Below the pieces are notes generated by a model that was not told the DNA's origin, made no database searches, and saw only the letters and a list, made by a program, of their open reading frames with translations. A program made the position numbers and the translations under genes. Below are positions 29,244 through 58,220 of a stretch of 64,000 bases of DNA, piece after piece; position 1 is the stretch's first letter; every line of letters starts with the position of its first letter. Source of the stretch: Odiellus spinosus (Eukaryota; Arthropoda; Arachnida; Opiliones; Phalangiidae); assembly GCA_963920705.1 (NCBI GenBank), contig OY987233.1, positions 8,896,959-8,960,958 on the forward strand, read 5' to 3'.

Positions 29244-30250
29244 ACATTTGTACCGGTAACTATACCTCTTAGTTTTAGCGATAAATTACTCAAAATTTCA
29301 GGAAATGCGAATGGTATTGAACCGATAGAATGTCTAGTGGTTTTCAAACACCCGGAAGAGAGTTAAATTACTAAATTATCAGTATTGAGAGCCAATTTGT
29401 ATATTTTCAGTTAGTATTGGTTAAGTTACTCGATACTTGTTAATTAAAATAGTTTTTTTCTTAATTTTAATTAAAAACAATTTATTTACTACAGTCATTC
29501 TCAGTCTCATTAATGAATATAGGATCATTCAATCAATGGATTTTAACGAAACGTGGTATACTTATCAATAAATTAAAAACCTTTTTCCTGAATATGTCAA
29601 GGAGTTCTTCAATTACGCTAAATAGGTGTGATACCAGTATTTAGATTTTTGATCAGCTTAAAAATAAAATATATACGGAGTATTGTATAGTTTATAAAGT
29701 ATAGAGTTTATTGGAAGGTAATAATTAATACTTGAAGTATCATTTTCGTTATTAATAGTCAACCCTTCGAGGCTTTGTAGTTGGGTCATTCCATGTGGTT
29801 TGACCTAGGCATGCAACCATGGGTCGGCAGATCATAATGAAATTTGGTACACTAGTTTCTATGCTTAAGAAACTAGGATTCCCAGATTTTAAGATGAAAT
29901 TAAAAAGCTTTGAATTTTTGGCGGAATTTAGAGTAAACCCCCAAGATTTTTAGAACGTGCAGCGAAAAAAAATTATGCTCTTGTGAAAATACCAATATCT
30001 TACTGGCGCTTCTGTTGATTCTTTGGAATTTACTCATGTTTATAGAGTAAAAGGCGAGCAATCCCATGGTCATCTCGGAAATGGTCTAACTCTTTTGGTT
30101 TTTAATTTTATTAGAGTTCGTGGGGGTCCTATACTTCGACGTGTGACGTCATGTGGGCCACTATATTCAAGAACCCGAGGTCAAATCTTTCACCTAGTAT
30201 ATATTTGGTTCTTGGTATTTGTTTCGTATCTAACTGGTAATCAACAACAA
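29244..30250. other. Sequence between Mff and the satellite locus
   Basis: About 1 kb after the Mff stop. It contains possible Mff poly-A signals (AATAAA at 29567 and near 29662). A dispersed repeat starts GGGTCATTCCATG at about 29784, and its beginning recurs at the right edge of the window (about 63919). An open frame at 30023-30334 runs into the satellite flank and shows no known domain. Confidence 0.6.
29784..30000. repeat. Dispersed repeat F (GGGTCATTCCATG start)
   Basis: It shares GGGTCATTCCATG and a downstream AAATTTGGTAC/AAATTTTGTAC word with 63919-64000 at the window edge. Both copies have the same orientation. The far end of this copy is not defined. Confidence 0.5.
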
Positions 30251-31017
30251 AAGTTTCAAATTTTTGGAATATATACACCCTGTAAAAAATTAAAAAAAAA
30301 AATCGATAATTTTACAAAGGGGAAAAAAAAATAATACAACCCCTGTAAAATAAATAATCAAAAATTTATCAAGGAGTATCCCTTGTAAAAAAAATTAATA
30401 CACCCCATGTAAAATAAATAATCAAAAATTTTACAATGTAAAATTTTTGACTATTTATTTTACAGAGGGTGTATTTATTTATTTTTTTTACAAGGGGTAC
30501 CCCTTGTAAAATTTTTGATTATTTATTTTACAGGAGGTGTATTTATTTTTATTTACAACGGGTACCCCTTGTAAAATTTTTGATTATTTATTTTACAGGG
30601 GGTGTATTTATTTTTTTTACAAGGGGTACCCCTTAAAAAAAAATAAAAAAATACACCCCCTGTAAAATTTTTGATTATTTATTTTAAAGGGGGTGTATTA
30701 TTTATTTTTACAATGGGTACCCCTTGTAAAAAAAATAGTTAAAAATTTTACAAGGGGTACCTTGTAAAAATAATAATACACCCCCTGTAAAATAAATAAT
30801 CAAAAATTTTACAAGGGGTACCCCTTGTAAAAAAAATACAACACCCCCTGTAAAATAAATAACCAAAAATTTTACATTTTTGATTATTTATTTTACAGTA
30901 GGTGTATTTTTTACAAGCGGTGTATTTTTAATAAGGGGTGTATTTTTTTCCAATTTTCCCTTGTAAAAAATCGGGAAAAAAAAAAAAAAAATATTACAAG
31001 GGGTACCCCTTCAACGC
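30250..31017 (+). repeat. Left junction region of the composite locus
   Basis: It is made of about ten degenerate modules in both orientations. Each combines the palindrome half TTTTACAAGGGGT (complement ACCCCTTGTAAAA), the spacer TTTTTGATTATTTATTTTAC, and the G-run motif ACAGGGGGTGTATT. The last 130 bp (from TGTATTTTTAATAAGGGGTG through TTACAAGGGGTACCCCTTCA to ACGCGTGATTTAT) matches, in reverse, the junctions at 51.75-51.9, 52.7-52.87 and 54.23-54.39 kb. It therefore defines the start of the 24-bp array. Confidence 0.85.
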
Positions 31018-31029
31018 GTGATTTATATT

Positions 31030-34000
31030 CAAAAATCTCAATTTTCCAAATTTCAAAAATCTCAGTTTTCCAAATCTCAAAAATCTCAATTTTCCAAATC
31101 TCAAAAATCTCAATGTTCCAAATCTCAAAAATCTCAATGTTCCAAATCTCAAAAATCTCAATTTTCCAAATCTCAAAAATCTCAATTTTCCAAATCTCAA
31201 AAATCTCAATTTTCCAAATCCCAAAAATCTCAATTTTTCAAATCCCAAAAATCTCAATTTTCCAAATCTCAAAAATCTCAATTTTCCAAATCTCAAAAAT
31301 CTCAATTTTCCAAATCTCAAAAATCTCAATTTTCCAAATCCCAAAAATCTCAATTTTCCAAATCCCAAAAATCTCAATTTTCCAAATCCCAAAAATCTCA
31401 ATTTTCCAAATCTCAAAAATCTCAATTTTCCAAATCTCAAAAATCTCAATTTTCCAAATCTCAAAAATCTCAATTTTCCAAATCCCAAAAATCTCAATTT
31501 TCCAAATCCCAAAAATCTCAATTTTCCAAATCCCAAAAATCTCAATTTTCCAAATCTCAAAAATCTCAATTTTCCAAATCTCAAAAATCTCAATTTTCCA
31601 AATCTCAAAAATCTCAATTTTCCAAATCCCAAAAATCTCAATTTTCCAAATCTCAAAAATCTCAATTTTCCAAATCTCAAAAATCTCAATTTTCCAGATC
31701 CCAAAAATCTCAATTCTCCAAATCTCAAAAATCTCAATTTTCCAAATCCCAAAAATCTCAATTTTCCAAATCCCAAAAATCTCAATTTTCCAAATCCCAA
31801 AAATCTCAATTATCCAAATCCCAAAAATCTCAATTTTCCAAATCCCAAAAATCTCAATTTTTCAAATCCCAAAAATTTCAATTTTCCAAATCCCAAAAAT
31901 TTCAATTTTCCAAATCCCAAAAATCTCAATTTTCCAAATCCCAAAAATCTCAATTTTCCAAATCCCAAAAATCTCAATTTTCCAAATCCCAAAAATCTCA
32001 ATTTTTCAAATCCCAAAAATCTCAATTTTCCAAATCTCAAAAATCTCAATTTTCCAAATCCCAAAAATCTCAATTCTCCAAATCTCAAAAATTTCAATTT
32101 TCCAAATCCCAAAAATTTCAATTTTCCAAATCCCAAAAATCTCAATTTTCCAAATCCCAAAAATCTCAATTTTCCAAATCCCAAAAATCTCAATTTTCCA
32201 AATCCCAAAAATCTCAATTTTCCAAATCCCAAAAATCTCAATTTTCCAAATCCCAAAAATCTCAATTTTCCAAATTTCAAAAATCTCAGTTTTCCAAATC
32301 TCAAAAATCTCAATTTTCCAAATCTCAAAAATCTCAATGTTCCAAATCTCAAAAATCTCAATGTTCCAAATCTCAAAAATCTCAATTTTCCAAATCTCAA
32401 AAATCTCAATTTTCCAAATCCCAAAAATCTCAATTTTTCAAATCCCAAAAATCTCAATTTTCCAAATCTCAAAAATCTCAATTTTCCAAATCTCAAAAAT
32501 CTCAATTTTCCAAATCTCAAAAATCTCAATTTTCCAAATCCCAAAAATCTCAATTTTCCAAATCCCAAAAATCTCAATTTTCCAAATCCCAAAAATCTCA
32601 ATTTTCCAAATCTCAAAAATCTCAATTTTCCAAATCTCAAAAATCTCAATTTTCCAAATCTCAAAAATCTCAATTTTCCAAATCCCAAAAATCTCTAAAT
32701 TTTCCAAATCCCAAAAATCTCAATTTTCCAAATCCCAAAAATCTCAATTTTCCAAATCTCAAAAATCTCAATTTTCCAAATCTCAAAAATCTCAATTTTC
32801 CAAATCTCAAAAATCTCAATTTTCCAAATCCCAAAAATCTCAATTTTTCAAATCCCAAAAATCTCAATTTTCTAAATCTCAAAAATCTCAATGTTCCAAA
32901 TCTCAAAAATCTCAATGTTCCAAATCTCAAAAATCTCAATTTTCCAAATCTCAAAAATCTCAATTTTCCAAATCCCAAAAATCTCAATTTTTCAAATCCC
33001 AAAAATCTCAATTTTCCAAATCTCAAAAATCTCAATTTTCCAAATCTCAAAAATCTCAATTTTCCAAATCTCAAAAATCTCAATTTTCCAAATCCCAAAA
33101 ATCTCAATTTTCCAAATCCCAAAAATCTCAATTTTCCAAATCCCAAAAATCTCAATTTTCCAAATCTCAAAAATCTCAATTTTCCAAATCTCAAAAATCT
33201 CAATTTTCCAAATCTCAAAAATCTCAATTTTCCAAATCCCAAAAATCTCAATTTTCCAAATCCCAAAAATCTCAATTTTCCAAATCCCAAAAATCTCAAT
33301 TTTCCAAATCTCAAAAATCTCAATTTTCCAAATCTCAAAAATCTCAATTTTCCAAATCTCAAAAATCTCAATTTTCCAAATCCCAAAAATCTCAATTTTT
33401 CAAATCCCAAAAATCTCAATTTTCTAAATCTCAAAAATCTCAATGTTCCAAATCTCAAAAATCTCAATGTTCCAAATCTCAAAAATCTCAATTTTCCAAA
33501 TCTCAAAAATCTCAATTTTCCAAATCCCAAAAATCTCAATTTTTCAAATCCCAAAAATCTCAATTTTCCAAATCCCAAAAATCTCAATGTTCCAAATCTC
33601 AAAAATCTCAATGTTCCAAATCTCAAAAATCTCAATTTTCCAAATCTCAAAAATCTCAATTTTCCAAATCTCAAAAATCTCAATTTTCCAAATCCCAAAA
33701 ATCTCAATTTTCCAAATCCCAAAAATCTCAATTTTCCAAATCCCAAAAATCTCAATTTTCCAAATCTCAAAAATCTCAATTTTCCAAATCTCAAAAATCT
33801 CAATTTTCCAAATCTCAAAAATCTCAATTTTCCAAATCTCAAAAATCTCAATTTTCCAAATCCCAAAAATCTCAATTTTTCAAATCCCAAAAATCTCAAT
33901 TTTCTAAATCTCAAAAATCTCAATGTTCCAAATCTCAAAAATCTCAATGTTCCAAATCTCAAAAATCTCAATTTTCCAAATCTCAAAAATCTCAATTTTC

Positions 34001-37000
34001 CAAATCCCAAAAATCTCAATTTTTCAAATCCCAAAAATCTCAATTTTCCAAATCCCAAAAATCTCAATGTTCCAAATCTCAAAAATCTCAATGTTCCAAA
34101 TCTCAAAAATCTCAATTTTCCAAATCTCAAAAATCTCAATTTTCCAAATCTCAAAAATCTCAATTTTCCAAATCCCAAAAATCTCAATTTTCCAAATCCC
34201 AAAAATCTCAATTTTCCAAATCCCAAAAATCTCAATTTTCCAAATCTCAAAAATCTCAATTTTCCAAATCTCAAAAATCTCAATTTTCCAAATCTCAAAA
34301 ATCTCAATTTTCCAAATCCCAAAAATCTCAATTTTTCAAATCCCAAAAATCTCAATTTTCTAAATCTCAAAAATCTCAATGTTCCAAATCTCAAAAATCT
34401 CAATGTTCCAAATCTCAAAAATCTCAATTTTCCAAATCTCAAAAATCTCAATTTTCCAAATCCCAAAAATCTCAATTTTTCAAATCCCAAAAATCTCAAT
34501 TTTCCAAATCTCAAAAATCTCAATTTTCCAAATCTCAAAAATCTCAATTTTCCAAATCTCAAAAATCTCAATTTTCCAAATCCCAAAAATCTCAATTTTC
34601 CAAATCCCAAAAATCTCAATTTTCCAAATCCCAAAAATCTCAATTTTCCAAATCTCAAAAATCTCAATTTTCCAAATCTCAAAAATCTCAATTTTCCAAA
34701 TCTCAAAAATCTCAATTTTCCAAATCTCAAAAATCTCAATTTTCCAAATCCCAAAAATCTCAATTTTCCAAATCCCAAAAATCTCAATTTTCCAAATCTC
34801 AAAAATCTCAATTTTCCAAATCTCAAAAATCTCAATTTTCCAAATCTCAAAAATCTCAATTTTCCAAATCTCAAAAATCTCAATTTTCCAAATCCCAAAA
34901 ATCTCAATTTTCCAAATCTCAAAAATCTCAATTTTCCAAATCCCAAAAATCTCAATTTTCCAAATCCCAAAAATCTCAATTTTCCAAATCCCAAAAATCT
35001 CAATTATCCAAATCCCAAAAATCTCAATTATCCAAATCCCAAAAATCTCAATTTTCCAAATCCCAATTTTCCAAATCCCAAAAATCTCAATTTTTCAAAT
35101 CCCAAAAATTTCAATTTTCCAAATCCCAAAAATTTCAATTTTCCAAATCCCAAAAATCTCAATTTTCCAAATCCCAAAAATCTCAATTTTCCAAATCCCA
35201 AAAATCTCAATTTTCCAGATCCCAAAAATCTCAATTTTCCAAATCCCAAAAATCTCAATTTTCCAAATCTCAAAAATCTCAATTTTCCAAATCCCAAAAA
35301 TCTCAATTTTCCAAATCTCAAAAATCTCAATTTTCCAAATCTCAAAAATCTCAATTTTCCAAATCTCAAAAATCTCAATTTTCCAAATCTCAAAAATCTC
35401 ATTTTTCCAAATCTCAAAAATCCAATTTTTCCAAATCCCAAAAATCTCAATTTTCCAAATCCCAAAAATCTCAATTTTTCAAATCCCAAAAATCTCAATT
35501 TTCTAAATCTCAAAAATCTCAATGTTCCAAATCTCAAAAATCTCAATGTTCCAAATCTCAAAAATCTCAATTTTCCAAATCTCAAAAATCTCAATTTTCC
35601 AAATCCCAAAAATCTCAATTTTTCAAATCCCAAAAATCTCAATTTTCCAAATCTCAAAAATCTCAATTTTCCAAATCTCAAAAATCTCAATTTTCCAAAT
35701 CTCAAAAATCTCAATTTTCCAAATCCCAAAAATCTCAATTTTCCAAATCCCAAAAATCTCAATTTTCCAAATCCCAAAAATCTCAATTTTCCAAATCTCA
35801 AAAATCTCAATTTTCCAAATCTCAAAAATCTCAATTTTCCAAATCTCAAAAATCTCAATTTTCCAAATCACAAAAATCTCAATTTTCCAAATCCCAAAAA
35901 TCTCAATTTTCCAAATCCCAAAAATCTCAATTTTCCAAATCTCAAAAATCTCAATTTTCCAAATCTCAAAAATCTCAATTTTCCAGATCCCAAAAATCTC
36001 AATTTTCCAAATCTCAAAAATCTCAATTTTCCAAATCCCAAAAATCTCAATTCTCCAAATCTCAAAAATCTCAATTTTCCAAATCCCAAAAATCTCAATT
36101 TTCCAAATCCCAAAAATCTCAATTTTCCAAATCCCAAAAATCTCAATTTTCCAAATCCCAAAAATCTCAATTATCCAAATCCCAAAAATCTCAATTTTCC
36201 AAATCCCAATTTTCCAAATCCCAAAAATCTCAATTTTTCAAATCCCAAAAATTTCAATTTTCCAAATCCCAAAAATCTCAATTTTCCAAATCCCAAAAAT
36301 CTCAATTTTCCAAATCCCAAAAATCTCAATTTTCCAGATCCCAAAAATCTCAATTTTCCAAATCCCAAAAATCTCAATTTTCCAAATCTCAAAAATCTCA
36401 ATTTTCCAAATCCCAAAAATCTCAATTTTCCAAATCTCAAAAATCTCAATTTTCCAAATCTCAATTTTCCAAATCTCAAAAATCTCAATTTTCCAAATCT
36501 CAAAAATCTCATTTTTCCAAATCTCAAAAATCCAATTTTTCCAAATCCCAAAAATCTCAATTTTCCAAATCCCAAAAATCTCAATTTTTCAAATCCCAAA
36601 AATCTCAATTTTCTAAATCTCAAAAATCTCAATGTTCCAAATCTCAAAAATCTCAATGTTCCAAATCTCAAAAATCTCAATTTTCCAAATCTCAAAAATC
36701 TCAATTTTCCAAATCCCAAAAATCTCAATTTTTCAAATCCCAAAAATCTCAATTTTCCAAATCTCAAAAATCTCAATTTTCCAAATCTCAAAAATCTCAA
36801 TTTTCCAAATCTCAAAAATCTCAATTTTCCAAATCCCAAAAATCTCAATTTTCCAAATCCCAAAAATCTCAATTTTCCAAATCCCAAAAATCTCAATTTT
36901 CCAAATCTCAAAAATCTCAATTTTCCAAATCTCAAAAATCTCAATTTTCCAAATCTCAAAAATCTCAATTTTCCAAATCCCAAAAATCTCAATTTTCCAA

Positions 37001-40000
37001 ATCCCAAAAATCTCAATTTTCCAAATCCCAAAAATCTCAATTTTCCAAATCTCAAAAATCTCAATTATCCAAATCTCAAAAATCTCAATTTTCCAGATCC
37101 CAAAAATCTCAATTTTCCAAATCCCAAAAATCTCAATTTTCCAAATCTCAAAAATCTCAATTTTCCAAATCCCAAAAATCTCAATTCTCCAAATCTCAAA
37201 AATCTCAATTTTCCAAATCCCAAAAATCTCAATTTTCCAAATCCCAAAAATCTCAATTTTCCAAATCCCAAAAATCTCAATTATCCAAATCCCAAAAATC
37301 TCAATTTTCCAAATCCCAAAAATCTCAATTTTTCAAATCCCAAAAATTTCAATTTTCCAAATCCCAAAAATTTCAATTTTCCAAATCCCAAAAATCTCAA
37401 TTTTCCAAATCCCAAAAATCTCAATTTTCCAAATCCCAAAAATCTCAATTTTTCAAATCCCAAAAATCTCAATTTTCTAAATCTCAAAAATCTCAATGTT
37501 CCAAATCTCAAAAATCTCAATGTTCCAAATCTCAAAAATCTCAATTTTCCAAATCTCAAAAATCTCAATTTTCCAAATCCCAAAAATCTCAATTTTTCAA
37601 ATCCCAAAAATCTCAATTTTCCAAATCTCAAAAATCTCAATTTTCCAAATCTCAAAAATCTCAATTTTCCAAATCTCAAAAATCTCAATTTTCCAAATCC
37701 CAAAAATCTCAATTTTCCAAATCCCAAAAATCTCAATTTTCCAAATCCCAAAAATCTCAATTTTCCAAATCTCAAAAATCTCAATTTTCCAAATCTCAAA
37801 AATCTCAATTTTCCAAATCTCAAAAATCTCAATTTTCCAAATCTCAAAAATCTCAATTTTCCAAATCCCAAAAATCTCAATTTTCCAAATCCCAAAAATC
37901 TCAATTTTCCAAATCCCAAAAATCTCAATTTTCCAAATCTCAAAAATCTCAATTTTCCAAATCTCAAAAATCTCAATTTTCCAAATCTCAAAAATCTCAA
38001 TTTTCCAAATCCCAAAAATCTCAATTTTCCAAATCTCAAAAATCTCAATTTTCCAAATCCCAAAAATCTCAATTTTCCAAATCCCAAAAATCTCAATTTT
38101 CCAAATCCCAAAAATCTCAATTATCCAAATCCCAAAAATCTCAATTTTCCAAATCCCAATTTTCCAAATCCCAAAAATCTCAATTTTTCAAATCCCAAAA
38201 ATTTCAATTTTCCAAATCCCAAAAATTTCAATTTTCCAAATCCCAAAAATCTCAATTTTCCAAATCCCAAAAATCTCAATTTTCCAAATCCCAAAAATCT
38301 CAATTTTCCAGATCCCAAAAATCTCAATTTTCCAAATCCCAAAAATCTCAATTTTCCAAATCTCAAAAATCTCAATTTTCCAAATCCCAAAAATCCAATT
38401 TTTCCAAATCCCAAAAATCTCAATTTTCCAAATCCCAAAAATCTCAATTTTTCAAATCCCAAAAATCTCAATTTTCTAAATCTCAAAAATCTCAATGTTC
38501 CAAATCTCAAAAATCTCAATGTTCCAAATCTCAAAAATCTCAATTTTCCAAATCTCAAAAATCTCAATTTTCCAAATCCCAAAAATCTCAATTTTTCAAA
38601 TCCCAAAAATCTCAATTTTCCAAATCTCAAAAATCTCAATTTTCCAAATCTCAAAAATCTCAATTTTCCAAATCTCAAAAATCTCAATTTTCCAAATCCC
38701 AAAAATCTCAATTTTCCAAATCCCAAAAATCTCAATTTTCCAAATCCCAAAAATCTCAATTTTCCAAATCTCAAAAATCTCAATTTTCCAAATCTCAAAA
38801 ATCTCAATTTTCCAAATCTCAAAAATCTCAATTTTCCAAATCCCAAAAATCTCAATTTTCCAAATCCCAAAAATCTCAATTTTCCAAATCCCAAAAATCT
38901 CAATTTTCCAAATCTCAAAAATCTCAATTTTCCAAATCTCAAAAATCTCAATTTTCCAGATCCCAAAAATCTCAATTTTCCAAATCTCAAAAATCTCAAT
39001 TTTCCAAATCCCAAAAATCTCAATTCTCCAAATCTCAAAAATCTCAATTTTCCAAATCCCAAAAATCTCAATTTTCCAAATCCCAAAAATCTCAATTTTC
39101 CAAATCCCAAAAATCTCAATTATCCAAATCCCAAAAATCTCAATTTTCCAAATCCCAAAAATCTCAATTTTTCAAATCCCAAAAATCTCAATTTTCTAAA
39201 TCTCAAAAATCTCAATGTTCCAAATCTCAAAAATCTCAATGTTCCAAATCTCAAAAATCTCAATTTTCCAAATCTCAAAAATCTCAATTTTCCAAATCCC
39301 AAAAATCTCAATTTTTCAAATCCCAAAAATCTCAATTTTCCAAATCTCAAAAATCTCAATTTTCCAAATCTCAAAAATCTCAATTTTCCAAATCTCAAAA
39401 ATCTCAATTTTCCAAATCCCAAAAATCTCAATTTTCCAAATCCCAAAAATCTCAATTTTCCAAATCCCAAAAATCTCAATTTTCCAAATCTCAAAAATCT
39501 CAATTTTCCAAATCTCAAAAATCTCAATTTTCCAAATCTCAAAAATCTCAATTTTCCAAATCCCAAAAATCTCAATTTTCCAAATCCCAAAAATCTCAAT
39601 TTTCCAAATCCCAAAAATCTCAATTTTCCAAATCTCAAAAATCTCAATTATCCAAATCTCAAAAATCTCAATTTTCCAGATCCCAAAAATCTCAATTTTC
39701 CAAATCTCAAAAATCTCAATTTTCCAAATCCCAAAAATCTCAATTCTCCAAATCTCAAAAATCTCAATTTTCCAAATCCCAAAAATCTCAATTTTCCAAA
39801 TCCCAAAAATCTCAATTTTCCAAATCCCAAAAATCTCAATTATCCAAATCCCAAAAATCTCAATTTTCCAAATCCCAAAAATCTCAATTTTTCAAATCCC
39901 AAAAATTTCAATTTTCCAAATCCCAAAAATTTCAATTTTCCAAATCCCAAAAATCTCAATTTTCCAAATCCCAAAAATCTCAATTTTCCAAATCCCAAAA

Positions 40001-43000: not shown

Positions 43001-46000
43001 CCAAAAATCTCAATTTTCCAAATCTCAAAAATCTCAATTTTCCAAATCCCAAAAATCTCAATTTTCCAAATCCCAAAAATCTCAATTTTCCAAATCCCAA
43101 AAATCTCAATTATCCAAATCCCAAAAATCTCAATTTTCCAAATCCCAATTTTCCAAATCCCAAAAATCTCAATTTTCCAAATCCCAAAAATCTCAATTTT
43201 CCAAATCTCAAAAATCTCAATTTTCCAAATCCCAAAAATCTCAATTTTCCAAATCTCAAAAATCTCAATTTTCCAAATCTCAAAAATCTCAATTTTCCAA
43301 ATCTCAAAAATCTCAATTTTCCAAATCTCAAAAATCTCATTTTTCCAAATCTCAAAAATCCAATTTTTCCAAATCTCAAAAATCTCATTTTTCCAAATCT
43401 CAAAAATCCAATTTTTCCAAATCCCAAAAATCTCAATTTTCCAAATCCCAAAAATCTCAATTTTTCAAATCCCAAAAATCTCAATTTTCTAAATCTCAAA
43501 AATCTCAATGTTCCAAATCTCAAAAATCTCAATGTTCCAAATCTCAAAAATCTCAATTTTCCAAATCTCAAAAATCTCAATTTTCCAAATCCCAAAAATC
43601 TCAATTTTTCAAATCCCAAAAATCTCAATTTTCCAAATCCCAAAAATCTCAATTTTCCAAATCCCAAAAATCTCAATTATCCAAATCCCAAAAATCTCAA
43701 TTTTCCAAATCCCAATTTTCCAAATCCCAAAAATCTCAATTTTTCAAATCCCAAAAATTTCAATTTTCCAAATCCCAAAAATTTCAATTTTCCAAATCCC
43801 AAAAATCTCAATTTTCCAAATCCCAAAAATCTCAATTTTCCAAATCCCAAAAATCTCAATTTTCCAGATCCCAAAAATCTCAATTTTCCAAATCCCAAAA
43901 ATCTCAATTTTCCAAATCTCAAAAATCTCAATTTTCCAAATCCCAAAAATCTCAATTTTCCAAATCTCAAAAATCTCAATTTTCCAAATCTCAAAAATCT
44001 CAATTTTCCAAATCTCAAAAATCTCAATTTTCCAAATCTCAAAAATCTCATTTTTCCAAATCTCAAAAATCCAATTTTTCCAAATCTCAAAAATTTCATT
44101 TTTCCAAATCTCAAAAATCCAATTTTTCCAAATCCCAAAAATCTCAATTTTCCAAATCCCAAAAATCTCAATTTTTCAAATCCCAAAAATCTCAATTTTC
44201 TAAATCTCAAAAATCTCAATGTTCCAAATCTCAAAAATCTCAATGTTCCAAATCTCAAAAATCTCAATTTTCCAAATCTCAAAAATCTCAATTTTCCAAA
44301 TCCCAAAAATCTCAATTTTTCAAATCCCAAAAATCTCAATTTTCCAAATCTCAAAAATCTCAATTTTCCAAATCTCAAAAATCTCAATTTTCCAAATCTC
44401 AAAAATCTCAATTTTCCAAATCCCAAAAATCTCAATTTTCCAAATCCCAAAAATCTCAATTTTCCAAATCCCAAAAATCTCAATTTTCCAAATCTCAAAA
44501 ATCTCAATTTTCCAAATCTCAAAAATCTCAATTTTCCAAATCTCAAAAATCTCAATTTTCCAAATCCCAAAAATCTCAATTTTCCAAATCCCAAAAATCT
44601 CAATTTTCCAAATCCCAAAAATCTCAATTTTCCAAATCTCAAAAATCTCAATTTTCCAAATCTCAAAAATCTCAATTTTCCAGATCCCAAAAATCTCAAT
44701 TTTCCAAATCTCAAAAATCTCAATTTTCCAAATCCCAAAAATCTCAATTCTCCAAATCTCAAAAATCTCAATTTTCCAAATCCCAAAAATCTCAATTTTC
44801 CAAATCCCAAAAATCTCAATTTTCCAAATCCCAAAAATCTCAATTATCCAAATCCCAAAAATCTCAATTTTCCAAATCCCAAAAATCTCAATTTTTCAAA
44901 TCCCAAAAATTTCAATTTTCCAAATCCCAAAAATTTCAATTTTCCAAATCCCAAAAATCTCAATTTTCCAAATCCCAAAAATCTCAATTTTCCAAATCCC
45001 AAAAATCTCAATTTTCCAGATCCCAAAAATCTCAATTTTCCAAATCCCAAAAATCTCAATTTTCCAAATCTCAAAAATCTCAATTTTCCAAATCCCAAAA
45101 ATCTCAATTTTCCAAATCTCAAAAATCTCAATTTTCCAAATCTCAAAAATCTCAATTTTCCAAATCTCAAAAATCTCATTTTTCCAAATCTCAAAAATCC
45201 AATTTTTCCAAATCCCAAAAATCTCAATTTTCCAAATCCCAAAAATCTCAATTTTCCAAATCCCAAAAATCTCAATTTTCCAAATCTCAAAAATCTCAAT
45301 TTTCCAAATCTCAAAAATCTCAATTTTCCAAATCTCAAAAATCTCAATTTTCCAAATCTCAAAAATCTCAATTTTCCAAATCTCAAAAATCTCAATTTTC
45401 CAAATCTCAAAAATCTCAATTTTCCAAATCTCAATTTTCCAAATCCCAAAAATCTCAATTTTCCAAATCCCAAAAATCTCAATTTTCCAAATCCCAAAAA
45501 TCTCAATTTTCCAAATCCCAAAATCTCAATTTTCCAAATCCCAAAAATCTCAATTTTCCAAATCTCAAAAATCTCAATTTTCCAAATCTCAAAAATCTCA
45601 ATTTTCCAAATCCCAAAAATCTCAATTTTCCAAATCCCAAAAATCTCAATTTTCCAAATCCCAAAAATCTCAATTTTCCAAATCTCAAAAATCTCAATTT
45701 TCCAAATCTCAAAAATCTCAATTTTCCAAATCTCAAAAATCTCAATTTTCCAAATCTCAAAAATCTCAATTTTCCAAATCCCAAAAATCTCAATTTTTCA
45801 AATCCCAAAAATCTCAATTTTCTAAATCTCAAAAATCTCAATGTTCCAAATCTCAAAAATCTCAATGTTCCAAATCTCAAAAATCTCAATTTTCCAAATC
45901 CCAAAAATCTCAATTTTCCAAATCTCAAAAATCTCAATTTTCCAAATCTCAAAAATCTCAATTTTCCAAATCCCAAAAATCTCAATTTTCCAAATCCCAA

Positions 46001-48940
46001 AAATCTCAATTTTCCAAATCCCAAAAATCTCAATTTTCCAAATCTCAAAAATCTCAATTTTCCAAATCCCAAAAATCTCAATTTTCCAAATCTCAAAAAT
46101 CTCAATTTTCCAAATCTCAAAAATCTCAATTTTCCAAATCCCAAAAATCTCAATTTTTCAAATCCCAAAAATCTCAATTTTCTAAATCTCAAAAATCTCA
46201 ATGTTCCAAATCTCAAAAATCTCAATGTTCCAAATCTCAAAAATCTCAATTTTCCAAATCTCAAAAATCTCAATTTTCCAAATCCCAAAAATCTCAATTT
46301 TTCAAAACCCAAAAATCTCAATTTTCAAATCTCAAAAATCTCAATTTTCCAAATCTCAAAAATCTCAATTTTCCAAATCTCAAAAATCTCAATTTTCCAA
46401 ATCCCAAAAATCTCAATTTTCCAAATCCCAAAAATCTCAATTTTCCAAATCCCAAAAATCTCAATTTTCCAAATCCCAAAAATCTCAATTTTCCAAATCT
46501 CAAAAATCTCAATTTTCCAAATCTCAAAAATCTCAATTTTCCAAATCTCAAAAATCTCAATTTTCCAAATCCCAAAAATCTCAATTTTCCAAATCCCAAA
46601 AATCTCAATTTTCCAAATCCCAAAAATCTCAATTTTCCAAATCTCAAAAATCTCAATTTTCCAAATCTCAAAAATCTCAATTTTCCAAATCTCAAAAATC
46701 TCAATTTTCCAAATCCCAAAAATCTCAATTCTCCAAATCTCAAAAATCTCAATTTTCCAAATCCCAAAAATCTCAATTTTCCAAATCCCAAAAATCTCAA
46801 TTTTCCAAATCCCAAAAATCTCAATTATCCAAATCCCAAAAATCTCAATTTTCCAAATCCCAATTTTCAAAATCCCAAAAATCTCAATTTTTCAAATCCC
46901 AAAAATTTCAATTTTCCAAATCCCAAAAATTTCAATTTTCCAAATCCCAAAAATCTCAATTTTCCAAATCCCAAAAATCTCAATTTTCCAAATCCCAAAA
47001 ATCTCAATTTTCCAGATCCCAAAAATCTCAATTTTCCAAATCCCAAAAATCTCAATTTTCCAAATCTCAAAAATCTCAATTTTCCAAATCCCAAAAATCT
47101 CAATTTTCCAAATCTCAAAAATCTCAATTTTCCAAATCTCAAAAATCTCAATTTTCCAAATCTCAAAAATCTCAATTTTCCAAATCTCAAAAATCTCATT
47201 TTTCCAAATCTCAAAAATCCAATTTTTCCAAATCCCAAAAATCTCAATTTTCCAAATCCCAAAAATCTCAATTTTCCAAATCCCAAAAATCTCAATTTTC
47301 CAAATCCCAAAAATCTCAATTTTCCAAATCTCAAAAATCTCAATTTTCCAAATCTCAAAAATCTCAATTTTCCAAATCTCAAAAATCTCAATTTTCCAAA
47401 TCCCAAAAATCTCAATTCTCCAAATCTCAAAAATCTCAATTTTCCAAATCCCAAAAATCTCAATTTTCCAAATCCCAAAAATCTCAATTTTCCAAATCCC
47501 AAAAATCTCAATTATCCAAATCCCAAAAATCTCAATTTTCCAAATCCCAAAAATCTCAATTTTTCAAATCCCAAAAATTTCAATTTTCCAAATCCCAAAA
47601 ATTTCAATTTTCCAAATCCCAAAAATCTCAATTTTCCAAATCCCAAAAATCTCAATTTTCCAAATCCCAAAAATCTCAATTTTCCAGATCCCAAAAATCT
47701 CAATTTTCCAAATCCCAAAAATCTCAATTTTCCAAATCTCAAAAATCTCAATTTTCCAAATCCCAAAAATCTCAATTTTCCAAATCTCAAAAATCTCAAT
47801 TTTCCAAATCTCAAAAATCTCAATTTTCCAAATCTCAAAAATCTCAATTTTCCAAATCTCAAAAATCTCATTTTTCCAAATCTCAAAAATCCAATTTTTC
47901 CAAATCCCAAAAATCTCAATTTTCCAAATCCCAAAAATCTCAATTTCCCAAATTCCAAAAATCTCAATTTTCCAAATCTCAAAAATCTCAATTTTCCAAA
48001 TCTCAAAAATCTCAATTTTCCAAATCTCAAAAATCTCAATTTTCCAAATCTCAAAAATCTCAATTTTCCAAATCTCAAAAATCTCAATTTTCCAAATCCC
48101 AAAAATCTCAATTTTCCAAATCCCAAAAATCTCAATTTTCCAAATCCCAAAAATCTCAATTTTCCAAATCTCAAAAATCTCAATTTTCCAAATCTCAAAA
48201 ATCTCAATTTTCCAAATCTCAAAAATCTTAATTTTCCAAATCTCAATTTTCCAAATCCCAAAAATCTCAATTTTCCAAATCCCAAAAATCTCAATTTTCC
48301 AAATTCCAAAAATCTCAATTTTCCAAATCCCAAAATCTCAATTTTCCAAATCCCAAAAATCTCAATTTTCCAAATCTCAAAAATCTCAATTTTCCAAATC
48401 TCAAAAATCTCAATTTTCCAAATCCCAAAAATCTCAATTTTCCAAATCCCAAAAATCTCAATTTTCCAAATCCCAAAAATCTCAAAAATCTCAATTTTCC
48501 AAATCTCAAAAATCTCAATTTTCCAAATCTCAAAAATCTCAAAAATCTCAATTTTCCAAATCTCAAAAATCTCAAATTTCCAAATCTCAAAAATCTCAAT
48601 TTTTCCAAATCTCAAAAATCTCAATTTTCCAAATCTCAAAAATCTCAATTTTCCAAATCTCAAAAATCTTAATTTTCCAAATCTCAAAAATCTCATTTTT
48701 CCAAATCTCAAAAATCTCAATTTTCCAAATCTCAAAAATCTCAATTTTCCAAATCTCAAAAATCTCAATTTTCCAAATCTCAAAAATCTCAATTTTCCAA
48801 ATCTCAAAAATCTTAAAAATCTCAAATTTTCCAAATCTCAATTTTCCAAATCTCAATTTTCCAAATCTCAATTTTCCAAATCTCAATTTCCCAAATCTCA
48901 ATTTTCCAAATCTCAAAAATCTCAATTTTCCAAATTTCAA
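31030..48940 (+). repeat. 24-bp satellite array, 17.9 kb (about 745 unit lengths)
   Basis: The unit is three blocks in a row: AAAAATCTC, AATTTTCC and AAATCTC (or AAATCCC). The + strand is nearly free of G, which appears only in rare variants (AATGTTCC, CCAGATCC, CAGTTTTCC). Variants are not random. Doublets of AATGTTCC, usually preceded by a TTTTCTAAATCTC unit, recur as markers of a higher-order structure. Some units lack one AAAAATCTC block, giving 15 bp. The right end (after about 48,230) is more irregular, with extra AAAAATCTC blocks and lost blocks. It is not coding: three + frames and two - frames stay open simply because 24 is divisible by three, and small indels near 32,695, 45,520 and 46,325 move the frame. 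Confidence 0.97.
40680..45520 (+). repeat. 2,430-bp segmental duplication inside the 24-bp array
   Basis: The block 40,680-43,109 is followed directly by a second copy from 43,110 to about 45,515. In the stretches I could compare through the conceptual frames (40,680-42,413 against 43,110-44,843), I found no difference. 2,430 equals 100 full units plus two 15-bp units, as seen in each copy. The second copy loses register near 45,520 through a one-base deletion. Confidence 0.85.
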
Positions 48941-48959
48941 AAATTAAATTTATTTATTT

Positions 48960-50498
48960 ATTTTACAAGGGGCAGTATTTATTATTTATTTTTTTTTTAC
49001 AGGGGGTGTATTTATTATTTATTTTTTTACAGGGGGTGTATTTATTATTTTTTTTTTTTACATGGGGTATATTTATTTATTTTTTTACAGGGGGTGTATT
49101 TATTATTTTTTTTTACAGGGGGTGTATTTATTATTTATTTTTTTTTACAGGGGGTGTATTTATTATAAAATTTTTTTACAGGGGGTGTATTTATTATTTA
49201 ATTTTTTTACATGGAGTGTATTTGTTATTTATTTTTTTTTACAGGGGGTGTATTTTTTTTGCGGGGGGTGTATTTATTATTTTTTTACAGGTGGTGTATT
49301 TATTATTTATTTTTTTACAGGGGGTGTATTTATTATATATTTTTTTTACAGAGGGTGGATTTATTATTTATTTTTTTACAGGGGGTGCATATATTATTTT
49401 TTTTACAGGGGGTGTATTTATTATTTTTTTACAGGGGGTGTATTTATTATTTATTTTTTTACAGGGGGTGTATTTTTTATTTATTTTTTTACAGGGGGTG
49501 CATATATTTTTTTTTACAGGGGGTGTATTTGTTATTTATTTTATTACAGGGGGTGTATTTTTTATTTATTTTTTTACAGGGGGTGTATTTATAATTTTTT
49601 TTACAGAGGGTGTATTTATTATTATTTTTTTTTTACAGGGGGTGTGTTTATTATTTATTTTTTACAGGGGGTGCATATATTATTTTTTTTACAGGGGGTG
49701 TATTTATTATTTTTTTACAGGGGGTGTATTTATTTTTTTTTTTACAGAGGGTGCATTTATTTATTTTTTTACAGGGGGTGCATATATTTTTTTTTACAGG
49801 GGGTGTATTTATTATTTTTTTACAGGGGGTGTATTTATTATTTATTTTTTTACAGGGGGTGTATTTATTATTTTTTTTACAGGGGGTGTATTTGTTATAT
49901 ATATATTTTTACAGGGGTGTATTTGTTATTTATTTTTTACAAGGGGTGTATTTATTATTTATTTTACAGGGGGTGTATTTATTATTTATTTTTTTACAGG
50001 GGGTGTATTTATTATTTATTTTTTACAGGGGGTGCATATATTATTTTTTACAGGGGGTGTATTTGTTATTTATTTTTTTACAGGGGGTGTATTTTTTATT
50101 TATTTTTTTACAGGGGGTGTATTTATAATTTTTTTTTACAGAGGGTGTATTTATTATTTTTTTTTTACAGGGGGTGTATTTATTATTTTTTTTACAGGGG
50201 GTGTGTTTATTATTTATTTTTTACAGGGGGTGTATTTGCTATTTATTTTTTTTACAGGGGGTACCCCTTGTAAAAAAATAATAATTGATTTTTTTACAAG
50301 GGGTGCCCCTTGCATTTATTATTTATTTTTTTTACAGGGGGTGTATTTATAATTTATTTTTTTTACAGGGGGTGTATTTTTTTTTTTTTTTTTTGTACCC
50401 CTTGTAAAAAAATAATAATTGATTTTTTTACAAGGGGTACCCCTTGCATTTATTATTTATTTTTTTTACAGGGGGTGTATTTATTATTTATTTTTTTT
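48960..50498 (+). repeat. 30-bp tandem array, forward orientation
   Basis: About 50 degenerate copies of a unit with ACAGGGGGTGTATTTATTAT followed by TTA and a run of T (about 30 bp, varying with T-run length). It follows the 24-bp array after a short AT-rich bridge (TAAATTTATTTATTTATTTT, then ACAAGGGGCAG). At 50265-50300 and 50395-50450 it is interrupted by the palindromic module and a TAATAATTGATTTTTTTAC spacer. Open frames here (GGVFIIYFF-type peptides) are repeat artefacts. Confidence 0.93.
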
Positions 50499-51245
50499 AA
50501 ATACACCCCCTGTAAAAAAATAATAAATACACCCCCTGTAAAAAAATAAATAATAAATACACCAGCTGTAAAAAAAAAAATAATAAATACACCCCCTGTA
50601 AAAAAATAAATAACAAATACACCCCCTGTAAAAATTAAATATGTGCACCCCCTGTAAAAAAAATAAATACACCCCCTGTAAAAAAATAATGAATACACCC
50701 CCTGTAAAAAATAAATAACAAATACACCCCCTATAAAAAAAATAACAAATACACCCCCTGTAAAAAAAATAATAAACACACCCCTGTAAAAAATAAAAAA
50801 TAAAAACACCCCCTGTAAAAAAAAATAAATAATAAATACACCCCCTGTAAAAATATAAATAATAAATACACCCCCTGTAAAAAAATAAATAATAAATACA
50901 CCCCCTGTAAAAAAAAAATCAATAATAAAAACACCCCCTGTAAAAAAAAATTATAATAATAAATACACCTCCTGTATAAAAAATAAATAAAAACTCTCCC
51001 TGTAAAAAAAAATAAATAATAAATACACCCCCTGTAAAATAAAAATAAATAAATACACCCCCTTTAAAAAAAATAATAATAAATACACCCCCTGCAATAA
51101 AATAAATAATAAATACACCCCCTGTAAAAAAATGAATAATAAATACACCCCCTGTAAAAAAAAAATAATAAACACACCCCTGTAAAAAAAAATAATATAT
51201 ACACCCCCTGTAAAAAAATAAATAATAAATACACCCCGTGTAAAT
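50499..51245 (-). repeat. 30-bp tandem array, inverted orientation
   Basis: From about 50,499 the repeat reads as the complement (AATACACCCCCTGTAAAAAA). The turn is abrupt: the last forward unit ends in a T run and the next bases, AAATACACCCCC, start the inverted copies. About 25 copies follow, and then the bridge GTGTAAATAAATAATATCCC leads into an inverted 24-bp array. Confidence 0.93.
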
Positions 51246-51289
51246 AAATAATATCCCTTGTAAAATAAATAAATAAATATAATTTTCGA

Positions 51290-51755
51290 AATTTGGAAAA
51301 TTGAGATTTTTGAGATTTGGAAAATTGAGATTTTTGAGATTTGGAAAATTGAGATTTTTGAGATTTGGAAAATTGAGATTTTTGAGATTTGGAAAATTGA
51401 GATTTGGAAAATTGAGATTTGGAAAATTGAGATTTTTGAGATTTGGAAAATTGAGATTTTTGAGATTTGGAAAATTGAGATTTTTGAGATTTGGAAAATT
51501 GAGATTTTTGAGATTTGGAAAATTGAGATTTTTGAGATTGGGAAAAATTGAGATTTTTGAGATTCGGAAAATTGAGATTTTTGAGATTCGGAAAATTGAG
51601 ATTTTTGAGATTTGGAAAATTGAGATTTTTGAGATTTGGAAAATTGAGATTTTTGAGATTTGTAAAATTGAGATTTTTGAGATTTGGAAAATTGAGATTT
51701 TTGAGATTTGGAAAATTGAGATTTTTGAATTGTGGAAAATTGAGATTTTTGAAAA
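51290..51755 (-). repeat. Inverted 24-bp array, copy R1 (about 19 units)
   Basis: On the + strand the unit reads GAGATTTTTGAGATTTGGAA plus AATT, the complement of the main array. It ends at GAAAATAAAACACGCGTTGA, which is the mirror of the left start of the main array (ACGCGTGATTTAT). It includes one 15-bp unit pair near 51,400. Confidence 0.95.
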
Positions 51756-52227
51756 TAAAACACGCGTTGAAGGGGTACCCCTTGTAATAAATTCATTTTT
51801 TTTTCCGATTTTTTACAAGGGAAAATTGGGAAAAAATACACCCCTTATTAAAAATACACCGTTTGTAAAAAAAATAATACACCCCCTGTAAAATAAATAA
51901 TCAAATTTTTCAAAAAATAAATAATAAATACACCCTCTGTAAAAAAATAAAAAATAAATACACACCCTGTAAAAAATGAATAATAAATACACCCCCTGTA
52001 AAAAAAAATAATAAACACACCCCTGTAAAAAAAAATAATAAACACACCCCCTGTAAAAAAAATAAATAATAAAAACACCCCCTGTAAAAAAAAAATAATA
52101 ATAATAAATACACCCCCGTAAAAAAATAAATAATATATACACCCCCTGTAAAAAAATAAATAATAAATACACCCCGTGTAAATAAATAATATCCCTTGTA
52201 AAATAAATAAATAAATATAATTTTCGA
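51755..52227 (-). repeat. Junction module plus short inverted 30-bp array (after R1)
   Basis: AAAACACGCGTTGAAGGGGT followed by ACCCCTTGTAATAAATTC, then a CGATTTTTTACAAGGGAAAA stretch, ACACCCCTTATTAAAAATAC and about nine inverted 30-bp units. It is nearly identical to 52,706-52,960 and resembles 54,226-54,390, so it is a fixed part of a larger repeated unit. Confidence 0.9.
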
Positions 52228-52705
52228 AATTTGGAAAATTGAGATTTTTGAGATTTGGAAAATTGAGATTTTTGAGATTTGGAAAATTGAGATTTTTGAG
52301 ATTTGGAAAATTGAGATTTTTGAGATTTGGAAAATTGAGATTTTTGAGATTTGGAAAATTGAGATTTTTGAGATTTGGAAAATTGAGATTTTTGAGATTT
52401 GGAAAATTGAGATTTTTGAGAATTGGAAAATTGAGATTTGGAAAATTGAGATTTTTGAGATTTGGAAAATTGAGATTTTTGAGATTTGGAAAATTGAGAT
52501 TTTTGAGATTTGGAAAATTGAGATTTTTGAGATTTGGAAAATTGAGATTTTTGAGATTTGGAAAATTGAGATTTTTGAGATTCGGAAAATTGAGATTTTT
52601 GAGATTGGGAAAATTGAGATTTTTGAGATTTGGAAAATTGAGATTTTTGAGATTTGGAAAATTGAGATTTTTGAATTGTGGAAAATTGAGATTTTTGAAA
52701 ATAAA
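52228..52705 (-). repeat. Inverted 24-bp array, copy R2 (about 20 units)
   Basis: Same order and same ends as R1 (51,290-51,755). Both start from AATTTTCGAAATTTGG and end with GAATTGTGG, AAAATTGAGA and GAAAATAAAACACGCG. The shared unusual GAATTGTGG unit at the same place shows that R1 and R2 were copied as whole blocks. Confidence 0.95.
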
Positions 52706-54123
52706 ACACGCGTTGAAGGGGTACCCCTTGTAATAAATTCATTTTTTTTTTCCGATTTTTTACAAGGGAAAATTGGAAAAAAACACACCAATTATTAAAA
52801 ATACACCGTTTGTAAAAAAAATAATACACCCCCTGTAAAATAAATAATCAAATTTTTCAAAAAATAAATAATAAATACACCCTCTGTAAAAAAAAAAATA
52901 ATAAATACACCCCCTGTAAAAAAAATAAATAATAAATACACCCCCTGTAAAAAGAAAATAATAAAAACACCCCCTGTAAAAAAAAATAAATAATAAATAC
53001 ACCCCCTGTAAAAAAAAATAATAAATACACCCGCTGTAAAAAAATAAATAATAAATACACCCCCTGTAAAAAAAAAAAATAAATACACACCCTGTAAAAA
53101 AAAATTATAAACACACCCCTGTAAAAAAAAATAATAAACACACCCCCTGTAAAAAAAAATAAAAAATACACCCCCTGTAAAAAAAAATAAGAAATACACC
53201 CCCTGTAAAAAAAAATAATAAATACACCCCCTGTAAAAAAATAAATAATAAATACACCCCCTGTAAAAAAAAATAATAAACACACCCCTGTAAAAAAAAA
53301 ATAACAAACACACCCCCTGTAAAAAAAATAAATAATAAAAACACACCCTGTAAAAAAAAATAATAAATACACCTCCTGTAAAAAAATAAATAATAAATAC
53401 ACCCCCTGTAAAAAAATAAATAATAAATACACCCCCTGTAAAAAAAAATAATAAATACACCCCCTGTAAAAAAATAAATAATAAATAAACCCCCTGTAAA
53501 AAAATAAATAATAAATACACCCCTTGTAAAAAAAATAAACACACCCCTGTAAAAAAAATAAACACACCCCTGTAAAAAAAAATAAACACACCCCTGTAAA
53601 AAAATAAATAATAAAAACACCCCCTGTAAAAAAAAAAATAATAAATACAACCCCTGTAAAAAAAATAAATAATAAAAACACCCCCTGTAAAAAAAATAAA
53701 TAATAAATACCCCTGTAAAAAAAATAGATAATAAAAACACCCCCTGTAAAAAAAATAAATTATATATACACCCCCTGTAAAAAAAAAAAATAATAAATAC
53801 ACCCCCTGTAAAAAAATAATAAAAACACCCCCAGTAAAAAAAAATAAATAATAATAATAATAATGGTGTAAAAAAATAAATAATAAATACACCCCCTGTA
53901 AAAAAAAATAATAAATACACCCCCCTGTAAAAAAAAATATAATAAATACACCCCCTGTAAAAAAATAAATAATAAATACACCCCCTGTAAAAAAATTAAT
54001 AATAAATACACCCCCTGTAAAAAAAAATAATAAACACACCCCTGTAAAAAAATAAATAATAAATACACCCCCTGTAAAAAAAATAAATAATAAATACTAC
54101 CCCTTGTAAAATAAATAAATAAA
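52706..54123 (-). repeat. Junction module plus inverted 30-bp array (after R2)
   Basis: The junction as after R1, then about 40 inverted 30-bp units (AATACACCCCCTGTAAAAAA type), including a cluster of shorter AAACACACCCCTGTAAAAAA units near 53,520-53,600. Confidence 0.9.
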
Positions 54124-54225
54124 ATTTTTGAGATTTGGAAAATTGAGATTTTTGAGATTTGGAAAATTGAGATTTTTGAGATTTGGAAAATTGAGATTTT
54201 TGAGATTTGGAAAATTGAGATTTTT
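54124..54225 (-). repeat. Inverted 24-bp array, copy R3 (about 4 units)
   Basis: Only about four units of the GAGATTTTTGAGATTTGG type, ending in GAAAATAAAACAAGCGTTGA, a one-base variant of the R1/R2 end. This is the shortest copy and shows that the composite element can exist with almost no 24-bp array. Confidence 0.92.
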
Positions 54226-54934
54226 GAAAATAAAACAAGCGTTGAAGGGGTACCCCTTGTAATAAATTCATTTTTTTTCATTTTTTACAAGGGAAAATAG
54301 CCAAAAAAATACACCCCTTATTAAAAATACACCGTTTGTAAAAAAAAATAATACACCCTCTGTAAAATAATCAGATTTTTCAAAAAATAAATAATAAATA
54401 CACCCCCTGTAAAAAAAATAAATAATAAAAACACCCCCTGTAAAAAAAAAATAATAATAAATACACCCCCTGTATAAAAAATAAATAATAAATACACCCC
54501 CTGTAAAAAAAAAAAATCAATAATAAAAACACCCCCTGTAAAAAAAAAATAATAAATACACCCCGTGTATAAAAAATAAATAAAAACACCCCCTGTAAAA
54601 AAAAATAAATAATAAATACACCCCCTGTAAAAAAATAAATAATAAATACACCCCCTGTAAAAAAAAATAATACACCCCTTGTAAAAAATAATACACCCCC
54701 TTGTAAAAAAAATAATACACCCCCTTGTAAAAAAAAATAATACACCCCCTTGTAAAATAAATAATCAAAAATTTTACAAGGGTTACCCCTTGTAAAAAGA
54801 ATTATACACCCCCTGTAAAATAAATAATCAAAAATTTATATATTTTTTTTTTTATCTTTTTACAAGGGGTACCCCTTTTAAAAATATCGTTTTTTTTATA
54901 ATTCTTTTACAAAGGGTACCTTATGCAAAATTTC

Positions 54935-54979
<45 letters not shown>

Positions 54980-55440
54980 CTCAACATCTCTATTTTCCAA
55001 TCTCAACATCTCAATTTTCCAAATCTCAAAAATCTCAATTTTCCAATTTTTGATTATTTATTTCACAGGGGGTGTATTATTTTTTTTACAAGGTACCCCT
55101 TGTAAAATTTTTGATTATTTATTTTACAGGGGGTGTATTATTTTTTTTTTTTTTACAAGGGGACCCCTTGTAAAATTTTTGATTATTTTTTTTACAAGGG
55201 GTACCCCTTGTAAAAAAAATAATACACCCCTTGTAAAAAAATAATACACCCCCTGTAAAATAAATAATCAAAAATTTTACAAGTGGTACCCCTTGTAAAA
55301 AAAATAATACACCCCCTGTAAAATAAATAATCAAATTTTTTTTTTTTTTTTTTTTTTAATTTTTTTACAAGGGGTACCATCCCCTTGTAAAAAAATAGAT
55401 TTTTTTTTATGTTTTTACAAGGGGTACCCCTTTTTTTGTA
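54226..55440 (-). repeat. Right junction region of the composite locus
   Basis: Junction module, about 12 inverted 30-bp units, then palindromic ACAAGGGGTACCCCTTGT modules in both orientations. There is also a roughly 40-T run at about 54,936-54,973 and a small forward piece of the 24-bp repeat at about 54,976-55,047. The locus ends with ACAAGGGGTACCCC at about 55,418-55,431. Confidence 0.85.
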
Positions 55441-55504
55441 TTTTTATATGCAATAAAAATACACATTCATTTTTATTCTGGACAATGCATTCGATAAAAC
55501 CAAG

Positions 55505-55814
55505 AATCCATTCAGGTTCCATAAGAATATGGGAAGGCCGCGATTCAATAACCATCCTCCCAAACTTTGTAGCAAAAGTTCGTCTGCTTCGAATCAATTT
55601 TTCAAGTAAATCGCTCCTGACATTATATTATTAACCCGCGCCACTAACGACCTTGACATAATATTTTGGGTAATAAAAATGGAGCCGTCCGAAAAAAGAT
55701 CTAAGCGTACAAATGTTGCGAAAATTGCAGACGAACTTTTGCTACAAAGTTTGGGAGGATGGTACGAGAGGCTAAAGCTATGCTCCCATATTCTTATGGA
55801 ACCTGAATGGATTC
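55505..55814. repeat. Large inverted repeat with about 85-bp arms beside the satellite
   Basis: The left arm 55505-55587 (AATCCATTCAGGTTCCATAA, GAATATGGGA, CCATCCTCCCAAACTTTGTA, GCAAAAGTTCGTCTGC) pairs with the right arm 55727-55814. Long exact stretches are broken by one region of mismatch in the middle. The spacer is about 140 bp. Both arms read, in opposite directions, as a peptide containing SHILMEPEWI, and the right arm reads ADELLLQSLGGWYERLKLCS before it. I do not recognise this fragment. It may be a duplicated piece of a host gene or of a transposon. Confidence 0.85.
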
Positions 55815-58039: not shown

Positions 58040-58220
58040 AATGGTTTTAAGCGCCATCTGTTCACATATCATCAGCATAAACCGATTTATTATAGTTTCA
58101 TAGAAGCCAAATTGGTTTGAAACTGGTTCCCAAAGCAGTTTTGAGAAATTGATTCAAATCGATTCAAGAAAAACTGTTTCCACATTCACGTGACTACTGC
58201 AAAACCTTTGAATCGGTTTG
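58040..58220. repeat. Dispersed repeat B, copy 2
   Basis: It matches about 1680-1865 in inverted orientation, from CGCCATCTGTTC at its left end through AAACCGATTTATTATAGTTT and GTTTGAAACTGGTTCC to AAAACCTTTGAATCGG. Confidence 0.65.

Follow-up and report, generated by a model that had tools for sequence, protein, structure and literature searches.

How a long block of short tandem repeats comes to be arranged as a mirror image of itself, and whether such a block is a transposable element, a satellite or an accident of assembly, is the question raised by this locus. The window, that is, the whole stretch of 64,000 nucleotides of Odiellus spinosus DNA that was analysed, carries a 25-kb tandem-repeat block at 30,267-55,440, in which the layers stand in mirror order about one point. 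The earlier note had read this block as a Foldback-type inverted-repeat element, or a satellite derived from one, with a single arm expanded. The window complex is a foldback-shaped satellite complex and belongs to a large dispersed family in this genome. In our judgement, the dispersal of short satellites and the origin and survival of long palindromes in animal chromosomes are open questions, and the presence of many mirrors of the same polarity that differ in centre and arm length makes fold-back copying versus transposition a testable matter.

Layout of the mirrored complex in the window

Inward from the left, a 63-bp palindrome satellite is followed first by the junction module (J) and then by the 24-bp and 30-bp arrays. 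The orientation of the 30-bp repeat reverses at 50,499/50,500, and the right side holds the same layers, reverse-complemented and in mirror order, with a composite unit 30-24-J present in three copies. The module order, the coordinates, the mirror reversal placed near 50,498 and the three successive composite copies on the right, all claimed in the earlier note, were borne out by mapping the layers and aligning the J copies. The features are as follows.

30267..30880, no strand: left outer layer, satellite of about 63 bp around the palindrome ACAAGGGGTACCCCTTGT (5,136 exact copies genome-wide; reversed-pattern control 0)
about 30885..31028, plus: left junction module J, aligned with the three right-arm J copies and six J copies from other loci
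31029..48951, plus: 24-bp array (CAAAAATCTCAATTTTCCAAATCY), the expanded left arm, 17,923 bp, 751 monomers in 42 forms
48950..50499, minus: 30-bp array of the left arm, with the G-rich strand on plus
50,263-50,310 and 50,395-50,447: palindrome pairs within the left 30-bp array, just left of the flip
50490..50510, no strand: centre, head-to-head flip of the 30-bp repeat, inside a predicted hairpin (50,440-50,560)
50500..51251, plus: 30-bp array, right arm, composite copy 1
51282..51752, minus: 24-bp array, right arm, composite copy 1, 471 bp
51753..51900, minus: J, right arm, copy 1, from the alignment of J copies
51912..52189, plus: 30-bp array, right arm, copy 2
52220..52698, minus: 24-bp array, right arm, copy 2, 479 bp
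52700..52850, minus: J, right arm, copy 2, 98% identical to right copy 1
52859..54122, plus: 30-bp array, right arm, copy 3
54124..54227, minus: 24-bp array, right arm, copy 3, 104 bp
54228..54380, minus: J, right arm, copy 3
54382..54765, plus: 30-bp array beyond the third J
54770..55440, no strand: right outer layer, palindrome satellite
54,977-55,047, plus: 24-bp remnant in left-arm orientation within the right outer layer
55,381: 26-bp motif in the right outer layer, common to two other right ends

The four J copies of the window could be aligned with each other. Each 30-bp unit contains TACA...TGTA, and the stretch 50,440-50,560 was predicted to fold into one long hairpin (z -10.2). Within the outer palindrome layers, small extra flips of the 30-bp core were located at 30.4-30.8 kb on the left and 55.1-55.2 kb on the right, the tail-to-tail flips of the window being in the left outer layer.

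The 24-bp layer measured 17.9 kb on the left versus 0.47, 0.48 and 0.10 kb on the right, which is a 38-fold expansion over the first right copy and agrees with the figure of about 40-fold given earlier. Wraparound alignment assigned 503 of the 751 left monomers to the two commonest of the 42 forms. Moreover, the left array has higher-order blocks, including a 2,430-bp block tandemly doubled from 40,476 with zero differences, across which the exact match extends over 2,525 bases. The left 24-bp array is young and grew recently. Because the right-arm monomers are mostly of the common T-ending form and the frequent left variants f, g and y are absent from them, the left expansion probably took place later than the formation of the arms. 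Arm lengths also vary independently elsewhere, as in the case of 22 versus 4 units at C2:0.609 Mb. Tandem repeats make up long inverted arms, as in Foldback-type transposons, and they also form head-to-tail arrays with homogenised monomers and higher-order blocks, as in satellite or minisatellite DNA.

The left 24-bp array (31029-48951) was nearly G-free on the plus strand, with a GC skew of -0.93 to -0.985. Plus-strand frames were open for kilobases across 30831-48947, the longest with 6,038 residues and another with 4,952, and the open frames of the window list within the complex were array frames only. The 6,038-residue stop-free frame was rejected as a gene because the unit length is divisible by three and few changes make stops.

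Recurrence of the layers and polarity of the centres

The genome sequence searched comprised 443,074,358 bases in 286 contigs. The 24-bp dimer pattern was found 1,916 times forward and 1,573 times reverse, and neighbouring 30-bp core pairs 49,513 times forward versus 29,298 times reverse, each with a control of 0. Chance was excluded because the patterns read backwards gave 0 matches versus 3,489 (24-bp dimers), 5,136 (palindrome), 153 and 14 (the two kinds of centre described below) exact matches in the genome. Since forward and reverse 30-bp pairs were unequal in number, not all 30-bp arrays are balanced mirrors. Some arrays (C11:5.00-5.02 and C2:31.98 Mb) looked one-directional in the stretch read.

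The layer order 24+ 30- / 30+ 24- was seen in complexes at C1:24.98, C1:27.6, C11:19.2 and C11:20.34 Mb, with partial complexes at C6:14.48, C6:18.07 and C11:9.47 Mb. Adjoining 24/30 array pairs, taken from nine regions with at least 3 units and at most 300 bases apart, were of opposite sign in 54 of 56 cases; one exception was a repeat of the outer palindrome layer, and the other a centre whose right 30-bp array was a single unit. All eight J-to-24 boundaries found with at most 3 mismatches were mirror-consistent (three left arms, all plus; five right arms, all minus), the arm at C6:18.07 Mb being assigned by layer order only. In addition, an 18-bp layer stood on both sides of the 30-bp layer at C2:1.451 and C4:25.07 Mb, and a 22-bp layer did so at C3:27.645 Mb. 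The 18/30 boundary pattern occurred five times: as a plus/minus pair at C2:0.609 Mb, as a pair at C4:25.07 Mb and once at C11:23.48 Mb. The stretch C1:458-479 kb, with its middle unread, is probably one complex. The 24/30 boundary was discarded as a family marker, being found with at most 3 mismatches at only four places, of which three belong to the window and the fourth to C11:9.47 Mb.

The direction of the centres was then counted. Compact 30-bp centres, having at most 30 bases between cores, were head-to-head at 153 sites versus tail-to-tail at 14 (reversed-pattern controls zero), nested and tandem matches being included among the 153 and centres with longer separators lying outside both counts. 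When matches less than 20 kb apart were merged, 33 head-to-head loci versus 5 tail-to-tail loci were obtained among the matches listed, the head-to-head list holding 50 of the 153 sites on both strands (one-sided binomial p about 2e-6, for the interval common to both lists). Because of this difference at the level of loci, random inversion and assembly artefact are both disfavoured as sources of the mirrors. In the loci read, flips with a palindrome between the cores were of both polarities, 6 and 5; flips without one were 31 head-to-head and 7 tail-to-tail, in loci that had been chosen for a head-to-head centre and are biased accordingly. The head-to-head rule holds only for compact centres. 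At L032 (C1:1,849,042-1,849,745), a 43-bp palindrome array is flanked by 30-bp repeats opposite to the main polarity rule.

Among 37 centres compared (the 50 sites listed, after removal of 13 that were nested, repeats of others or close neighbours; one A is in excess in the C5 entry), most differed from one another, and the loop was longer than 8 bases in 24. The unlinked centres at C2:14.41 and C3:17.18 Mb were one base apart, and a single centre type was found at several C3 loci; both sets look like copies of one mirrored ancestor. Hairpin energy was rejected as the cause of the polarity, as the energies predicted for the two strands were similar.

The mirror arrangement of the window is thus real and recurrent and has a preferred polarity. 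That the flip at 50.5 kb is an assembly join or a false inverted duplication is very improbable. Runs of N do adjoin two other complexes, and the array is longer than common long reads, both of which would suit such a join; however, the two arms of the window are unlike in length, layer copy number and sequence, and many centres of one polarity are not what artefacts favour. A misassembled inversion is also unlikely because layered mirrors were read at unlinked loci. The complexes adjoined by N are L011 and L023, and satellites of this kind may break the assembly.

Arms, flanks and ends

Symmetry beyond the centre was evaluated at 25 loci, all of them selected for a head-to-head centre (20 from the list and five read earlier), for which reason the result concerns symmetry and not frequency. 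With the centre set at maximal agreement, all cores within about 1 kb were mirrored on both sides at 21 of the 25. The spacer profiles of the arms were more similar within loci (mean 0.962) than between loci (0.858), and none of 10,000 permutations gave a value as high; 23 loci were used, L035 and L047 being left out for having fewer than four spacers in an arm. The opposite arm of the same locus was the best match for 8 of 23 left arms and 9 of 23 right arms. At C4:25.07 Mb, the arms were 97.5% identical to each other and 93.8-95.3% identical to those of two other loci. L034 and L041 had clearly different spacer types in their two arms, and arm lengths can differ greatly.

In a tree of 10 J copies, the left J of the window grouped with that of C11:9.47 Mb (support 0.97), and its plain identity was 94% both to this copy and to the first right-arm copy. 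At C11:20.34 Mb, the pair of J copies shared 89% identity, and the left member was 96% identical to the J of C6:14.48 Mb (support 0.71). Judged by J, the arms of one locus do not clearly appear to be nearest relatives. By the spacer similarity and the J relationships, then, there is exchange between arms, and there are also hints that some of the loci are younger than their mirrored modules.

The flanks were compared for traces of insertion. Shared words of at least 7 bases were scanned at four loci, where boundaries are uncertain and A/T-rich and duplications below 7 bases escape the scan, and only short A/T-rich or repeat-internal matches were obtained, none of them at both boundaries. Direct matching of flank to flank at a fifth locus gave nothing notable. 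A direct repeat around C1:24.98 Mb, where a run of N precedes the right flank, was dismissed as a CT microsatellite.

At C11:20.34 Mb, a 58-bp non-satellite stretch was present in both flanks in inverted orientation at 93% identity, and a fainter resemblance extended over about 240 bases. A 200-base query of this flank matched only its own two places in the genome, a result in which a missing match does not prove rarity. This was the one locus with an inverted flanking duplication among five with both flanks read; the other four, including the window, had no inverted flank of that kind. The best inverted flank score of the window was 39 versus 28-37 in cross-locus controls, and it came from a short repeat that also matched directly. 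Although a single case, the inverted unique flank of C11:20.34 Mb suggests local fold-back copying, by which a mirrored unique flank is predicted, unlike by a transposon with family-wide ends. Inverted pairs in the far flanks of the window (1,692-1,863 with 58,052-58,212, among others) were rejected as a part of the mirror; the one pair examined proved to be a common dispersed repeat, with 42 matches from the 40 scored of 1,787 candidates.

The window and C6:14.487 Mb have identical copies of the 26-bp motif just inside the right end, and C1:27.666 Mb has one with at most 2 changes. By eye, the outermost sequence varies between loci, and the palindrome layer is common to the J-bearing loci. 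The right-end motif in common and the single-base difference between the centres at C2:14.41 and C3:17.18 Mb speak for a single mirrored element as the ancestor.

Thus, the Foldback-type reading stood in part. Paired inverted ends, sought genome-wide as the earlier note had proposed, were found as layered arms recurring at unlinked loci with a polarity bias, and one layer was expanded in one arm. The target duplications sought with them were not found in the loci scanned, nor was a terminal sequence or centre common to the copies read. Directly right of the complex, a short inverted-repeat element was observed at 55463-55840, with a weakly similar piece at 27,347-27,400.

Known systems and the origin of the complexes

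The Drosophila Foldback (FB) element has inverted arms of successive short tandem repeats that differ in length. The window differs from it in repeat sequences and scale, and no target duplication was shown in the window complex. Dispersed satellite and minisatellite DNA has tandem arrays, higher-order blocks and recent homogenisation, whereas the window complex has strong polarity at head-to-head centres and concentric mirrored layers.

In Tetris of Drosophila virilis, an element of foldback anatomy, the inverted arms include a layer of tandem repeats from which satellite arrays grow (Dias et al. 2014, PMC4079207); it has target duplications of 8-10 bp, a flanking domain on the outside, arms of up to 1.7 kb and repeats of about 220 bp (PMC4079207). 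It is like the window in its foldback arms with a tandem-repeat layer, and structurally complete copies are described as having no conserved open frames (PMC4079207). However, the window arms reach about 20 kb, contain several layered short repeats and gave no target duplication. Galileo of Drosophila, with P-superfamily transposase sequence, 7-bp target duplications and arms of up to about 1.26 kb, shares long inverted ends in which internal tandem-repeat number is unequal between arms, and chimeric copies of it occur (PMC3573991). Tm1 of root-knot nematodes resembles the window in having composite inverted ends with domains and a short tandem motif in variable number; of its 53 complete copies, 45 are flanked by target duplications of 8-10 bp, and the family has defined terminal motifs and transposase-bearing members (PMC3169594). 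Among the papers listed by the literature searches none was on this mirrored layered design, the five repeat strings were unmatched in the text of 5.39 million papers, and the 26-bp palindrome had 0 matches in the viral contigs scanned. What is new here is scale, layering and polarity, not kind. The idea drawn from Tetris, that foldback arms are a source of satellites, is extended to tens of kilobases and several layers.

As to origin, we tentatively and by a small margin prefer fold-back copying, followed by independent growth of the arms, to a decayed Foldback-type transposon family. A strand ending within the G-rich 30-bp array would fold onto its own repeat, the unit of which holds TACA...TGTA; copying of the folded strand would then take in the outer layers, and at times adjoining DNA, and so give a palindrome. 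The arms would subsequently lengthen or shorten separately, by slippage or unequal exchange, while still exchanging some sequence with each other, and in the window the left 24-bp layer would have expanded to 17.9 kb and the right composite unit would have been tandemly triplicated. The preferred polarity would be expected if the G-strand with its T-rich spacers folds more easily than the A-rich complement. Points for this course of events are the polarity (153/14, or 33/5 as loci among the matches listed), the mirrored cores (21/25), the within-locus spacer similarity, the C4:25.07 Mb arms, the differing centres and the C11:20.34 Mb flank. Against it stand the inverted flank at 1 of 5 loci, the similar strand energies, the J tree, the unlike arms of L034 and L041, the sometimes very unequal arm lengths, the low share of arms best matched by their own partner (8 and 9 of 23), the long loops in 24 of 37 centres, the near-identical centres, the shared right-end motif and the unequal forward and reverse 30-bp pairs (49,513 versus 29,298).

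The main alternative is a non-autonomous Foldback-type DNA transposon family, with ancestral inverted arms that moved whole and whose internal repeats expanded later, as in Tetris and Galileo. This account is a serious candidate, though slightly less favoured. Layer order and J orientation are common to unlinked loci, both C2:0.609 and C4:25.07 Mb have the 18-bp/30-bp boundary as a mirrored pair, the arms of a locus do not clearly fall together in the J tree, arms expand independently, and Tetris, Galileo and Tm1 are published precedents. It was weighted slightly up because of the end motif shared by the window, C6:14.487 and C1:27.666 Mb and the two unlinked centres one base apart. It is opposed by the failure to find a target duplication of at least 7 bases at four loci, by centres that mostly differ from one another, by outermost layers that vary between loci and by the inverted flank, of which C11:20.34 Mb is the sole case. 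An improbable source is chance, whereby random inversions or unequal exchange would have left mirrored stretches in ordinary satellite arrays. The apparently one-directional arrays at C11:5.00-5.02 and C2:31.98 Mb, the genome-wide inequality of forward and reverse pairs and the palindrome-separated flips of both polarities (6 and 5 in the loci read) agree with such an origin. By our own definition a satellite has no preferred polarity about a symmetry centre, and random inversion would give the two polarities in equal number, but 153 versus 14 were seen, or 33 versus 5 as loci among the matches listed, and the outer layers are mirrored too. Returning to fold-back copying, its broadest form would be the formation, and perhaps the spread, of satellites free of transposase, in which G-rich strands repeatedly fold back and copy layers and neighbouring DNA into concentric palindromic satellites of one preferred polarity at many places in the genome; this we regard as a rather unlikely, speculative extension.

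Elsewhere in the window, an RPB5 gene with a single open frame lies at 8128-8781 on the minus strand, and its best solved-structure matches were animal RPB5 chains. Pieces resembling Xaa-Pro aminopeptidase were observed at 20480-22331 on the plus strand; Peptidase_M24_C was below the cut-off for one of them, and the remaining pieces are presumably of the same enzyme. Further repeats were a 182-bp near-perfect tandem duplication (98%) at 778-1148, a 31-bp array at 59,305-59,543 and a minisatellite block of related 38-, 29- and 39-bp units at 60926-61948.
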